Shown here in pieces: positions 6,136 to 54,631 of a stretch of DNA of 64,000 nt. The notes under the pieces are model-generated. The model had not been told where the DNA came from. It ran no database searches and saw nothing but the letters and a program-made list of their open reading frames with translations. The stretch covers positions 124,001 to 188,000 of the forward strand of contig CALXMP010000003.1 in NCBI GenBank assembly GCA_944389505.1. Direction: 5' to 3'. Position 1 is the stretch's first letter; every line of letters starts with the position of its first letter. The translations under genes and the position numbers were made by a program. Source of the stretch: an uncultured Spirochaetaceae bacterium. GTDB lineage: Bacteria; Spirochaetota; Spirochaetia; Sphaerochaetales; Sphaerochaetaceae.

Positions 6136-6208
6136 GCCGCTTTAGCTCAGTTGGTAGAGCAAAGGACTGAAAATCCTTGTGTCCCTGGTTCGATTCCTGG
6201 AGGCGGCA
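6136..6208 (+). tRNA. tRNA-Phe (GAA)
   Basis: Complete 73-nt cloverleaf. The acceptor GCCGCTT pairs with AGGCGGC (with one T-G), the D-arm contains TAGCTCAGTTGGTAGAGC, and the anticodon stem AAGGA/TCCTT encloses loop CTGAAAA with GAA at 6169-6171. The T-loop is GGTTCGATTCC and the discriminator is A6208. CCA is not encoded. A terminator hairpin follows 5 nt later. Confidence 0.97.
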
Positions 6209-11259: not shown

Positions 11260-11308
11260 GGTAATGAACCTCCTGATTCTGATTCAAAGAGATTCATGCC
11301 GAGTTGTC

Positions 11309-11395
11309 AGCGATTGCTCCCTACGCTGGTATTATCCAGATCAGGTCTTGGGTCAGGGCGTGCCTTTCTCAGCTTTACAGCTCCCCAGAATCACT
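11309..11395 (-). ncRNA. TPP riboswitch (thi-box)
   Basis: On the minus strand all hallmarks are present. P1 is AGTGATT (11395-11389) pairing with AATCGCT (11315-11309). The GGGGAGC opening is followed by CTGAGA (11372-11367). The second arm reads ACCTGATCTGGAT, then AATACCAGCGTAGGGA. It ends about 50 nt before ykoF. No run of T follows a terminator hairpin, so control may act on translation: AGGAGG of ykoF lies in the expression platform. Confidence 0.96.
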
Positions 11396-11417
11396 TTGAT
11401 TATCCTGACTGACTTTA

Positions 11418-12968: not shown

Positions 12969-14431
12969 TTACCTTTGCTCCAGATCTTGAAATATATACT
13001 GTCCGTATCCTTTATTGGCAGGAATGATTAGATTAAACCGTTTCATTAAATTTAAGAGAGAGCTTGCGGGAGATTTGGTTATGCCACAGACTGATACGAT
13101 ATCGCTTCTTGTAAACGGTTCTGAAAATCCAAATTGATTAAATAGTGCCATTATGTTGTTATGTGTTGGTGTAGTGAGTGACAAGGTATTAAGCAGGTCT
13201 TCATAGTCCTGTTTTTTGGTTGAGAGTCCTGTTTTTTCTATATCAGAGTCCTGTTTTTTCTCAGAAAGTACTGTTTTATTGCCATAATTCAGGTTTGGAA
13301 GCGTTACGATGAATTGTGAAGAAGTAGAGGAGAATGTAGGCATTTTCTCCTCTGTATAGTTCGCACAGACTTGATACCACTCGATGATCTTTTCAAGTCC
13401 GCTTCCTTGGCGTTCCATGTAACCAAGTCTAGAAAATACATCAGCAAGTACAGGGTTGCGTCTTTTCGATGACACTTCATTAAGTTTCTGGTTTTGTATG
13501 ATGCTTCCATCGGCCATTCCACCGGGGGAATAGATGGTCATTCGATCATCGAATATATCGATGTGAATCTCACTTCCAAGCTCTAAATATGAGCGATGAA
13601 CGAGAGCATTGACGAGTGCTTCCAGGCAACTTCGATCAGCATACTCTGGCATCTCGATTCTTGAAGTAGGAGCCTTCCTCCACATCATCTTTGTGTTTCT
13701 CTTGATGAAGGACATTCCGTCTTCAAGCAGTTTGATGATGCTCCCTGTGAATTCTGAGCTGTCAAACGCATCCATAAGACCACCGGCCTTTGTGAGGCCA
13801 TTCCAACGGACGCAGAAGAGTCTTGATTGCCTCAGCGGACACACATCTGCAAAAAGAACTCCAGCATTTGTCAGCTTCCTGGTTTCTTCATCTACAAGGC
13901 CAAACGAGACAAGATATTTGTCATCAAAGCTATTCCCTGTCCAGACTTTGTATCGTTCCCTAAGCTTTGTGAACGCATAATCCTTCGCATCATACTTTGA
14001 GACAAGTGAATCAAAGGATTCATTCCATCGAGGATAAGCTCATGAAGGATATGATCAGGAGCCACGATGCTTTCATCACCAAGCCTGATGTATGCTTCCC
14101 TGATTCCATCGGCTTTGTAGTAATAGGGAGTATGAGTTCCTTTTGGAATCGAAAGAACGAGTACAGCTTTTCCATATTCCTGTTCTGCGGTGAGGATGAA
14201 CCGAGGAATAGGAGAAATCCTCTCCTTAATGAGTCTGCTTATGTTTTCAGCATCCGTCTGTGGATCGGATAGCCCGACTACATTGTGAGCATTATCAACA
14301 CCAAAGAAGAGAGTTCCACCAGCTGTGTTTGCAAAAGCACTGACACTTTTGAGCCAGCTTTTTGGCTTTTTCACTTCAAGTGCTTCTTTGAAATCACAGA
14401 CAGTTGCTTCCGATATTAATGTACTTATCAT
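12969..14431 (-). pseudogene. AlbA_2 (Schlafen-like) ATP-binding regulator, frameshifted (copy A)
   Basis: The N-terminal AlbA_2 domain (from 14431; SWLKSVSAFANTAGGTLFFG) is followed by an ATPase-C-like region (ALVNALVHRSYLELG, YSPGGMADG) and a C-terminal winged helix (FTRSDIVSVCGITKSPASSL). The frame shifts at about 14027, just after LILDGMN; continuation as SFDSLVSKYDAKDYAF lies in the -1 frame. Otherwise the reading frame is open and well conserved. A linker of imperfect KKQD-containing repeats (DNA unit GAGTCCTGTTTTTT, 13205-13280) precedes the winged helix. Family members are often near toxin or defence loci, but function is not established. A programmed frameshift is an alternative to a mutation. 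Confidence 0.75.
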
Positions 14432-52987: not shown

Positions 52988-53017
52988 TTGACATATCCCC
53001 ATCTGCTGCAATATATT
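52988..53017 (+). promoter_or_regulatory. Promoter of rpsD
   Basis: TTGACA (52988-52993), 18-bp spacer, TATATT (53012-53017). The leader of about 53 nt could hold an S4-binding structure, but I do not see a known one. Confidence 0.7.
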
Positions 53018-53076
53018 ATCCTAGCTGTGCTTTGGCATGGCAATAAAACTGACATTGTTACTGGAGGGTAAGATCT

Positions 53077-53670
53077 ATGGCAAGGAATATGGGTCCTAGA
53101 TTTAAGCAGTGCAGAAGACTTGGTGTGAATGTATGTGGACACCCCAAGGCGATGAACAGAGCAAACGATGCAGCGTTTGCAAGAAGGAAGAAGCCTACTG
53201 ATTATAGCAGGCAGCTTACTGAGAAGCAGAAGCTCAAGGCTTACTATGGGATTCTTGAGAAGCAGCTTAGAAGGTACTTCGACAAGGCTCTCAAGTCCAG
53301 CATGGCAACAGGCGATGCTCTTGTCATCTCTCTCGAGAGAAGGCTTGACAACGCTGTTTACCGCATTGGCTTCGGCAACTCGATCAGGCTCGCACGCCAG
53401 CTCGTATCGCATGGCCACATTCTCGTAAACGGCAAGAAGGTTGACATCCCGTCATATCAGATCAAGGTTGGCGACGTTATCTCTCTCAAGGAGAAGTCAA
53501 GAACCAATGAGCACTTCAGGGATTGCTTCCTTGGCCACCCGGCATTCAATCTCCCTTATTTCGAGAGGAATGAGGAGGAGTTCTCCGGAAAGTTCGTAAG
53601 GCTTCCTGAGAGATCAGAGATTCCTGTGCAGGTCAATGACCAGCTCGTTGTCGAGTTCTATTCAAAGTAA
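53077..53670 (+). CDS. rpsD: Ribosomal protein S4, 197 aa
   Basis: Small-subunit assembly protein. [20 protein letters not shown] start, S4 domain [39 protein letters not shown] (about 92-130), C-terminal [20 protein letters not shown]. It stands outside the rpoA operon, with its own promoter, as in Treponema and Borrelia. GGAGG precedes ATG. Confidence 0.98.
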
Positions 53671-53691
53671 AAGTCTTCATTGATAATGCCG

Positions 53692-53810
53692 CCTTTCCGG
53701 GCCACATACCGGGAAGAGAAAGAAGAGGAGCCACATTCCACATCAGCTCCCTTCCGGAAGCGCCTTCTGACGGCTGCCCTCAAAACAGAAGGTGTACAGG
53801 CAGCAAAATG
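53692..53810 (+). ncRNA. Structured RNA with potential H-type pseudoknot behind rpsD
   Basis: The 140 nt between rpsD and its terminator is densely folded by eye. TTTCCGG can pair near CCGGGAA (53692-53715), GGAGC with GCTCC (53727-53750), CTTCCGGAAG is self-complementary (53751-53760). Then CCTTCTG (53763-53769) pairs with CAGAAGG (53786-53792), while GCTGCC (53773-53778) pairs with GGCAGC (53799-53804), giving an H-type pseudoknot. No ORF. Could be a 3'-UTR-derived sRNA or a regulatory domain; no known family matched. Confidence 0.45.
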
Positions 53811-53838
53811 GTCCCGGTCGTTGACCGGGATTCCTTTT
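53811..53838 (+). terminator. Intrinsic terminator after rpsD and the structured RNA
   Basis: GGTCCCGGTC-GTT-GACCGGGATTCC followed by TTTTT. Confidence 0.9.
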
Positions 53839-53856
53839 TGCCGATATGCCTTTGTA

Positions 53857-54555
53857 TCAGGTCCAGCTTGCTGAGAATGACAATGGCTGGGAGAGAAGCA
53901 GGAAAGCTATGACAGGGAAGGAATATGAGATTGTATTCTCCGAGATCGGCTCTGCATTCTCCACAGAAGTTATCGTACCGGGTACTGTTATGTTTATTGT
54001 TACTTCCCCATTTGATATAGCATCTGGTCCTTCTTCTCCAAGAAGGAAGTAGATCATCTCAAGGTAATCTGCTTCGCTCATACCCTGGTTGTATTCAGGA
54101 CCGTATACCTCGAAGTTAGGATCCGCAAGGAATGGAACGATTGTCTTGAGCTCGGGATAGTTGTTTATATCAAGATAGAAGGAGAAGCTGTTCTCCCCGA
54201 TCTTCACGAAGCTCTGGTCAGCAGCTCCGAATGATCCCAGCAGCGTTGTCAGATCATTTGTGGAGAATGCCAGTGTATATTCATTCTCTCCCGTCTTATC
54301 ATATGAGACGGCTTCAGCTCCAGCAGTTTCTCTGAGCTGTCCTGCGAAGCCCTCTATGGAGCTATCCATTATCGATTTGCCATTCTCCGGGAGGAATTCA
54401 GCGAAATCCTCGAGAACAGAGACGAAGAAAGGCTCAGCCTTGATCTCCGAGACACTTCCGAAGCTATTCTGATTGTTTATGGTCATGGATTCTGTCACGG
54501 TGCATGACGCCAGCAGCAGAACAGCCATGAGCAGTATTGATAATGCTTTTCCCAT
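53857..54555 (-). CDS. Predicted lipoprotein, unknown function, 232 aa
   Basis: No family recognised. MGKALSILLMAVLLLASC is a lipoprotein signal with lipobox LLAS-C (Cys18). The mature part is acidic and mostly beta/alpha mixed, with FFVSVLEDFAEFLPENG and YLDINNYPELKTIVPFLADP. ATG 54555 is chosen since the signal peptide begins there. Shares a divergent 76-nt spacer with the FN3-type secreted protein. A hydrophobic tail ends the chain. Confidence 0.72.
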   Translation of the reverse strand: MGKALSILLMAVLLLASCTVTESMTINNQNSFGSVSEIKAEPFFVSVLEDFAEFLPENGKSIMDSSIEGFAGQLRETAGAEAVSYDKTGENEYTLAFSTNDLTTLLGSFGAADQSFVKIGENSFSFYLDINNYPELKTIVPFLADPNFEVYGPEYNQGMSEADYLEMIYFLLGEEGPDAISNGEVTINITVPGTITSVENAEPISENTISYSFPVIAFLLLSQPLSFSASWT

Positions 54556-54631
54556 ATGGACAGGATAAACAATCAAGGCACAGTAGACAACGCTCAACCT
54601 TTGTGATAGTTAACTTAACAAGGTGAGTTAA

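Follow-up and report, generated by a model that had tools for sequence, protein, structure and literature searches.

What is the folded RNA that lies between the stop codon of rpsD, the gene of ribosomal protein S4, and the terminator of its transcript in an uncultured Spirochaetaceae bacterium, and does it amount to more than an ordinary 3' untranslated region (UTR)? The question is raised by a 64,000-nucleotide stretch of DNA (the window; genome G000), in which an earlier note had pointed to a dense fold ahead of a strong terminator, drawn with an H-type pseudoknot and read as either a stable small RNA (sRNA) or a protein-binding site. The analysis describes a new RNA that is strongly supported and of a rare type, belongs to a narrow clade and has a putative function. 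Its tie to a single gene, its covariation and its presence in a named isolate, Bullifex porci, make feedback by a ribosomal protein at the 3' end of an mRNA directly testable, in a clade where the control of S4 may have been rebuilt outside the alpha operon.

Structure of the element

The reading frame of rpsD stops at 53670, the folded segment starts 16 nt later and an intrinsic terminator follows at 53810-53839. The minimum free energy (MFE) of 53671-53845 is -66.5 kcal/mol, corresponding to a z score of -3.66, and none of 200 dinucleotide shuffles folds as low. The dense folding reported in the earlier note is therefore borne out by the MFE, and further by the covariation across relatives described below. 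The element is a four-helix RNA of approximately 53687-53802, composed of a closing stem, P1, and the hairpins P2, P3 and P4. The features of the region, all on the plus strand, are as follows.

53687-53690, plus strand: 5' strand of P1, UGCC (MFE, covariation)
53693-53716, plus strand: hairpin P2, loop GCCACAUA with near-invariant CCACA (MFE, covariation)
53722-53754, plus strand: hairpin P3, two-part stem, loop with invariant CAUUCC (MFE, covariation)
53760-53795, plus strand: hairpin P4, 10 bp, with the 16-nt loop ACGGCUGCCCUCAAAA at 53770-53785 (MFE, covariation)
53799-53802, plus strand: 3' strand of P1, GGCA, the strand assigned to a pseudoknot in the earlier note (MFE, covariation)
53810-53839, plus strand: intrinsic terminator closing the rpsD transcript (sequence)

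Two interlocked helices had originally been proposed here, and only one of them stands. CCTTCTG (53763-53769) and CAGAAGG (53786-53792) do pair, as the inner part of the 10-bp stem P4. The strings of the second helix, GCTGCC (53773-53778) and GGCAGC (53799-53804), both exist in the window, and an H-type pseudoknot with both helices can be drawn in its sequence. The MFE structure, however, pairs GGCA (53799-53802) with TGCC (53687-53690), forming P1, and not with the P4 loop, and across relatives this 3' strand covaries with its partner in P1. A GGYAGY partner at most 45 nt after the loop is found in 2 of 45 UTRs of the genus, the window's own and that of L051, so the interlocking is not conserved, and it is barely credible that the pseudoknot is the functional fold.

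The search of Rfam proposed in the earlier note was run and matched no family. In Rfam 15 there is no match over the element at the gathering cut-off, and none over the cut-off was returned at E <= 10 for 53660-53850 of the window or at E <= 3 for the loci of nine relatives. The only gathering matches in the window are a TPP riboswitch (11300-11397, minus strand) and a tRNA gene (6136-6208, plus strand).

Conservation and covariation

The genus was sampled by 48 genomes, of which 46 have an rpsD match and 45 a readable 3' end of the gene, the match in G005 being only 23 residues at a contig end. The core of the P4 loop and CAUUCC are present in all 45 readable UTRs, 44 of which are distinct; at the DNA level CATTCC is invariant in 44 sequences and CGGCTRCCCTC occurs in all 44 distinct UTRs. 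A sequence-only alignment of the 44 UTRs places the longest invariant or near-invariant runs in the three loops, namely CCACA in P2, CAUUCC in P3 and CGGCU-R-CCCUC(A) in P4, the near-invariant motif of the P4 loop thus reading CGGCURCCCUCA. Under a simple rule, a terminator-like hairpin with a T-run is also present in 45/45 UTRs of the genus.

Covariance models were trained on 11 sequences of one subclade (R1) and on 43 sequences (R2). R1 recovers 44/44 distinct rpsD loci of the genus, its 11 training loci included, with 43 at E <= 6.3e-5 and one at 0.029, while R2 finds the element in 67 of 68 loci at E <= 0.01, sister genus included.

Covariation in relatives, a check suggested in the earlier note, gives strong support to the structure. 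The alignment A6 has 57 distinct rows, sister genus included, and like A5 was fitted to the model, a circumstance in the model's favour. Standard pairs make up 93.2% of its 1317 cells, and all 24 modelled pairs have changed on both sides (5/5 in P1, 4/4 in P2, 7/7 in P3 and 8/8 in P4), compared with a shuffled mean of 20.9 and 5 of 500 shuffles as high. Compensatory cells number 417 against 106 in shuffles, with none of the 500 shuffles reaching 417, and the covariation score in A6 is 0.798 against 0.211 when shuffled and 0.087-0.184 when the partners are slid. The top 22 column pairs by corrected mutual information all belong to the structure. L029:722-809 (E 0.03), L010:922-1027 (E 0.099) and L010 itself were left out of A5, and L085 falls below threshold in A6.

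The sequence-only alignment A3 (11 rows) was not fitted but is the source of the hand-drawn structure, made as a constrained fold of L014; in it seven pairs have changed on both sides, compared with 3.3 for shuffles (one of 500 reaching seven), and 92.7% are paired, a share that drops to 30-54% when partners are slid; further pair types are not above shuffles (9 against 9.9). The folding energies of single relatives are unremarkable, with a mean z of -1.10 and 11 of 45 below -2 (60 shuffles each), and the case for the fold therefore rests on covariation. Plain MAFFT followed by RNAalifold on the 44 UTRs (A1) returned zero pairs, an outcome attributed to misaligned stems of different length.

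A conserved structured RNA at this locus is near certain. The suspicion that the segment goes beyond a plain 3' UTR holds, the covariation marking it as a folded RNA under selection. The earlier note would have given up this view had covariation and a discrete RNA product both been missing; the covariation is strong.

Taxonomic range

Applied to 198 genomes of the class, R2 reaches E <= 1e-5 in ten only, nine from the same genus and one from a second genus of the family. In this sister genus, g29, the element follows rpsD in 4/4 genomes read by eye, three of which were also found by R2. A DNA motif scan over 84,980 species genomes, with a strict motif that misses variants such as L006 and L085, returned 65 matching stretches, 55 of them in Spirochaetales, including the isolate Bullifex porci (L103), Candidatus Ornithospirochaeta and Candidatus Aphodenecus. 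For 54 of the 55, rpsD is on the same strand as the motif, which begins 21-49 nt beyond the point where the match to the gene ends; the remaining match, L125, is cut before rpsD and represents the same place as L084, which follows rpsD.

Several further matches were set aside. The 10 motif matches in unrelated bacteria are taken as chance, having no rpsD in the stretch and a best R2 E value of 0.022, a weak score for stretches that had been selected for the motif. A single viral motif match is also taken as chance, with no rpsD in the stretch and no R2 match at E <= 1. Weak matches in the class were read in genomes G022, G039, G054, G102, G106, G130, G161 and G171. Six weak matches, L218-L223, lie inside long open frames, and another, L067, lacks the loop motifs by eye. 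The match L068:1562-1683 (G039, R1 E 5.9e-4) is away from rpsD, was missed by R2 in G039 and is probably due to chance. L068, which belongs to another family of the class, has a loop, GACAGUGGCCUCAAAAUC, that is vaguely similar to that of the element, and sits between what we take to be an HD-type ORF and an SDR-like ORF. In the window itself, a weak match at 14157-14280 (minus strand, E 0.0042) is without the P4 loop motif.

Genomic setting of rpsD

The gene and its upstream region comprise the following features.

52988-53019, plus strand: rpsD promoter, TTGACA ... TATTAT (conserved ATTGACA-N-TAnAaT)
53062-53070, plus strand: Shine-Dalgarno (SD) region of rpsD, UGGAGGGUA, candidate partner of the P4 loop (leader conservation, complementarity)
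53070-53103, plus strand: predicted start-codon hairpin region, around AUG and codons 7-9, CCU AGA UUU (MFE)
53077-53670, plus strand: rpsD, ribosomal protein S4, 197 aa (ORF; phmmer against solved S4 chains, E down to 9.8e-47)

The promoter pattern ATTGACA-N-TAnAaT is conserved in the 36 usable upstream regions of a 37-row alignment, L029 being wrongly cut and uncounted. Across 77 loci, near-identical copies included, the promoter upstream of rpsD is strong, averaging 2.06 mismatches in 12 positions. In the same 77 loci, copies included, no good promoter-like site occurs in the final 72 nt of the gene and a further 18 nt, where the average is 5.09 of 12. A small hairpin is present at the 5' end of the rpsD leader (53024-53041), and many relatives have a hairpin of changing sequence there. 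This small hairpin of the short 5' leader is different from the conserved element, which lies 3' of rpsD and so does not class as an S4 ribosomal leader.

Downstream, the next long ORF of the window is convergent (53857-54597, minus strand). A crude tally of stop-to-stop frames covered 55 loci, three more being too short for it: in 28 the longest downstream frame runs opposite to rpsD and in 27 along it, with many kinds of protein encoded. Several g29-like loci (e.g. L083, L118 and L128) have a recurrent secreted protein with an STDGSTS motif, co-directional past the terminator, which is presumably a phosphate-binding protein. Attenuators have the same layout, a conserved fold with a terminator behind it, and the element might on that account be a riboswitch or a leader of the next gene acting through terminator read-through. 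Such a role is very unlikely, with a convergent neighbour in the window and downstream frames of unrelated kinds that are so often opposite; their variation in direction and kind means that the element is no leader of one next gene. Considering the promoter before rpsD, the lack of a good site at the end of the gene, the terminator behind it and the varied neighbours, the simplest view is that the element forms the 3' UTR of a short rpsD transcript.

In the genome of the window the alpha operon has rpoA directly after rpsK. The distance from rpsM to rpoA is 794-829 nt in 25/25 readable loci of the genus (a set of 30 loci from 40 matching genomes, five of them incomplete), leaving no room for rpsD, which is thus outside the alpha operon in this genus. 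In other genera of the family rpsD stands just before rpoA in 8/8 sampled genomes (L089, L091, L092 and L094-L098), and these same eight loci give no R2 match at E <= 5. RpsD identity is 74-100% within the genus and 82-84% in g29, compared with approximately 36-51% in the other Spirochaetia searched. This low identity, together with the place outside the alpha operon, makes replacement by a foreign rpsD possible in this clade. For seven other rpsD genes of the class that stand alone (L090, L100, L167, L169, L173, L182 and L186), inspection by eye shows no such tail and R2 gives no match, so a departure from the alpha operon is possible without the element. One family member, G072, has two rpsD genes, L098 before rpoA and L100 solo without the 3' element.

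Alternative explanations

Since the terminator would cap its end and the fold is compact and closed, the element could be a trans-acting sRNA derived from the 3' UTR, cut from the rpsD mRNA and kept by the terminator; a stable sRNA released from that mRNA was one of the two readings of the earlier note. The C-rich loops of the element (CCACA, CAUUCC and RCCCUC) would then act by base pairing with other mRNAs or by binding a partner protein. That three loops are unpaired, near-invariant and C-rich fits this well, as does the terminator-like end in 45/45 UTRs, and one report, in its available part, describes the detection of an RNA, SR79100, that overlaps the L17 downstream element (PMC2864571). 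The final 72 nt of rpsD lack a good promoter-like site, which makes processing out of the rpsD transcript a more likely origin for an sRNA than transcription by itself. Set against it is the strictness of the linkage: the element is never seen away from rpsD, 54/54 checkable Spirochaetales matches following that gene, and no genome of 60 holds a second match better than E 2.2e-4, where a free sRNA gene would be expected to move or duplicate. A trans-acting product is accordingly rather unlikely. The second reading of the earlier note, a protein-binding site, is a live reading for the fold.

The position just before the terminator and the closure of the fold by P1 would also suit a ligand-free element of stability or processing, one that shields the short rpsD message against 3' exonucleases or determines its lifetime. 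Stability alone should have no need of three near-invariant loops, the terminator already caps the end of the message, and the seven other solo rpsD genes do without such a tail; this explanation is unlikely as well.

Proposed role

The element is strictly linked to rpsD, and that gene has lost its alpha-operon setting; control in cis of S4 synthesis, by what may be called an S4 downstream element, is on these grounds the best reading. The element is likely a 3' UTR cis element of rpsD, a view that takes co-transcription and cis-regulation from the arrangement of the locus. The fuller proposal, in which a new clade-specific structured RNA domain forms the rpsD 3' UTR, acts in cis and is most likely autogenous, is one that we hold with evenly divided confidence; likewise, the chances are about even that S4, the likeliest candidate ligand, regulates its own synthesis through the 3' domain. 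Under this proposal, whenever S4 outnumbers 16S rRNA the surplus protein would attach to the 3' domain of its own message and thereby lower the translation or the stability of that message. A resemblance to the S4 site of 16S rRNA (h18), an idea that came from the E. coli sequence, was discarded, the 16S stem of a genus member being unlike P4 by eye. R2 gave no match at E <= 10 against the partial 16S of one genus member, with no visible rRNA mimicry, and no 16S match was found in G000.

One possible read-out would be pairing of the P4 loop with the start region of the same message. The loop sequence URCCCUC is complementary to GAGGGUA of the rpsD SD region over 7 bp, with a predicted energy of -12.4 kcal/mol, about twice that obtained with made-up generic SDs. 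Among 25 distinct loop/leader combinations, 22 have a complement of 7 bp or more and 24 one of 6 bp or more, and the R of the loop is G or A facing U, except in L085, where the pairing is lost. Shuffling gives p of approximately 0.055 (0.047-0.059 with the leader shuffled). Of 51 other ORFs in the window, two outscore rpsD at their first start codon, and at least 10 do so if any of the starts among their first 60 codons may count. The pairing is without covariation because both of its sides are nearly invariant.

On the message side, GGAGGGT precedes the start in 55/55 loci with distinct coding sequences and in 24/24 distinct 22-nt leaders, and GGAGGGU is absent from four control genes. The own SDs of two of these four are equally constant (rpsM AGGAGG in 25/25, rpoA AGGAG in 25/25), so that constancy of the SD alone says little for pairing, and its extreme conservation is weakened as a proof. 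The predicted mean unpaired probability of the rpsD SD is 0.50. Around the start codon, at least four pairs between -9..+1 and codons 7-10 form in the MFE structure of 39 of 50 distinct leaders, and codons 7 (CCU, P7) and 8 (AGA, R8) show zero synonymous variation in 55 distinct coding sequences. The predicted start-codon hairpin may thus be a second sign of possible translational control at rpsD.

From these predictions a closed-loop switch can be sketched, in which the P4 loop would capture the SD and S4, on the 3' domain or on the start-codon hairpin, would lock or release the contact. We regard this version as doubtful; if true, it would represent ribosomal-protein feedback read from the 3' end of an mRNA.

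Comparison with known systems

No mention of such an element was found in the open-licence papers searched, a scope from which no absence from print is claimed, and a term search of a 2024 survey of 50 genomes (PMC11109978) gave no such element for rpsD and Spirochaetes. Known control of S4 synthesis is, in the parts of the sources at hand, exerted from the other end of the message. The rpsD of Bacillus stands alone and is autoregulated through its 5' leader (PMC10931766, PMC7247131), and other S4 leaders are 5' elements also (PMC7247131). The leaders compared are those of the E. coli alpha operon and of Bacillus rpsD, together with the candidates of Bacteroidia, Clostridia, Flavobacteria and Fusobacteriales. 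The present element shares with them S4 as the gene product and, with Bacillus, a solo rpsD; unlike these leaders it is situated 3'. At the thresholds applied, the element has no match among the Rfam families.

Closer in position is the L17 downstream element (RF01708) of Lactobacillales and Listeria. According to the available portions of two reports, this is a structured RNA of a ribosomal protein gene's 3' UTR that frequently has no gene immediately behind it, shows no obvious similarity to rRNA and has a proposed feedback role (PMC2864571, PMC7247131). As far as those portions go, both elements are structured RNAs of a ribosomal protein gene 3' UTR without obvious similarity to rRNA. They differ in the gene, which is rpsD rather than rplQ in 54/54 checkable Spirochaetales matches, in the phylum and in the absence of an Rfam match for the rpsD element, and GNRA tetraloops are reported for the L17 element where large C-rich loops are found here. 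By its covariation, its linkage to rpsD and its terminator-like end in 45/45 UTRs, and with transcription presumed, the element belongs to the kind termed ribosomal protein gene downstream element.

For the putative contact between the two ends of the message, the nearest parallel is the icaR mRNA of Staphylococcus aureus, in which, according to the available part of the report, UCCCCUG of the 3' UTR pairs with the gene's own SD, a pairing backed by compensatory mutations and RNase III assays (PMC3868564). A 5'-3' switch of this type, formed by the P4 loop and the SD, is weakly suggested as possible for rpsD. On that partial view of the source, the two systems would share a short C-rich motif in the 3' UTR complementary to the message's own SD, 7 nt long in icaR and URCCCUC in rpsD; the rpsD pairing differs in being a predicted one, and its motif is set within a conserved multi-helix domain.
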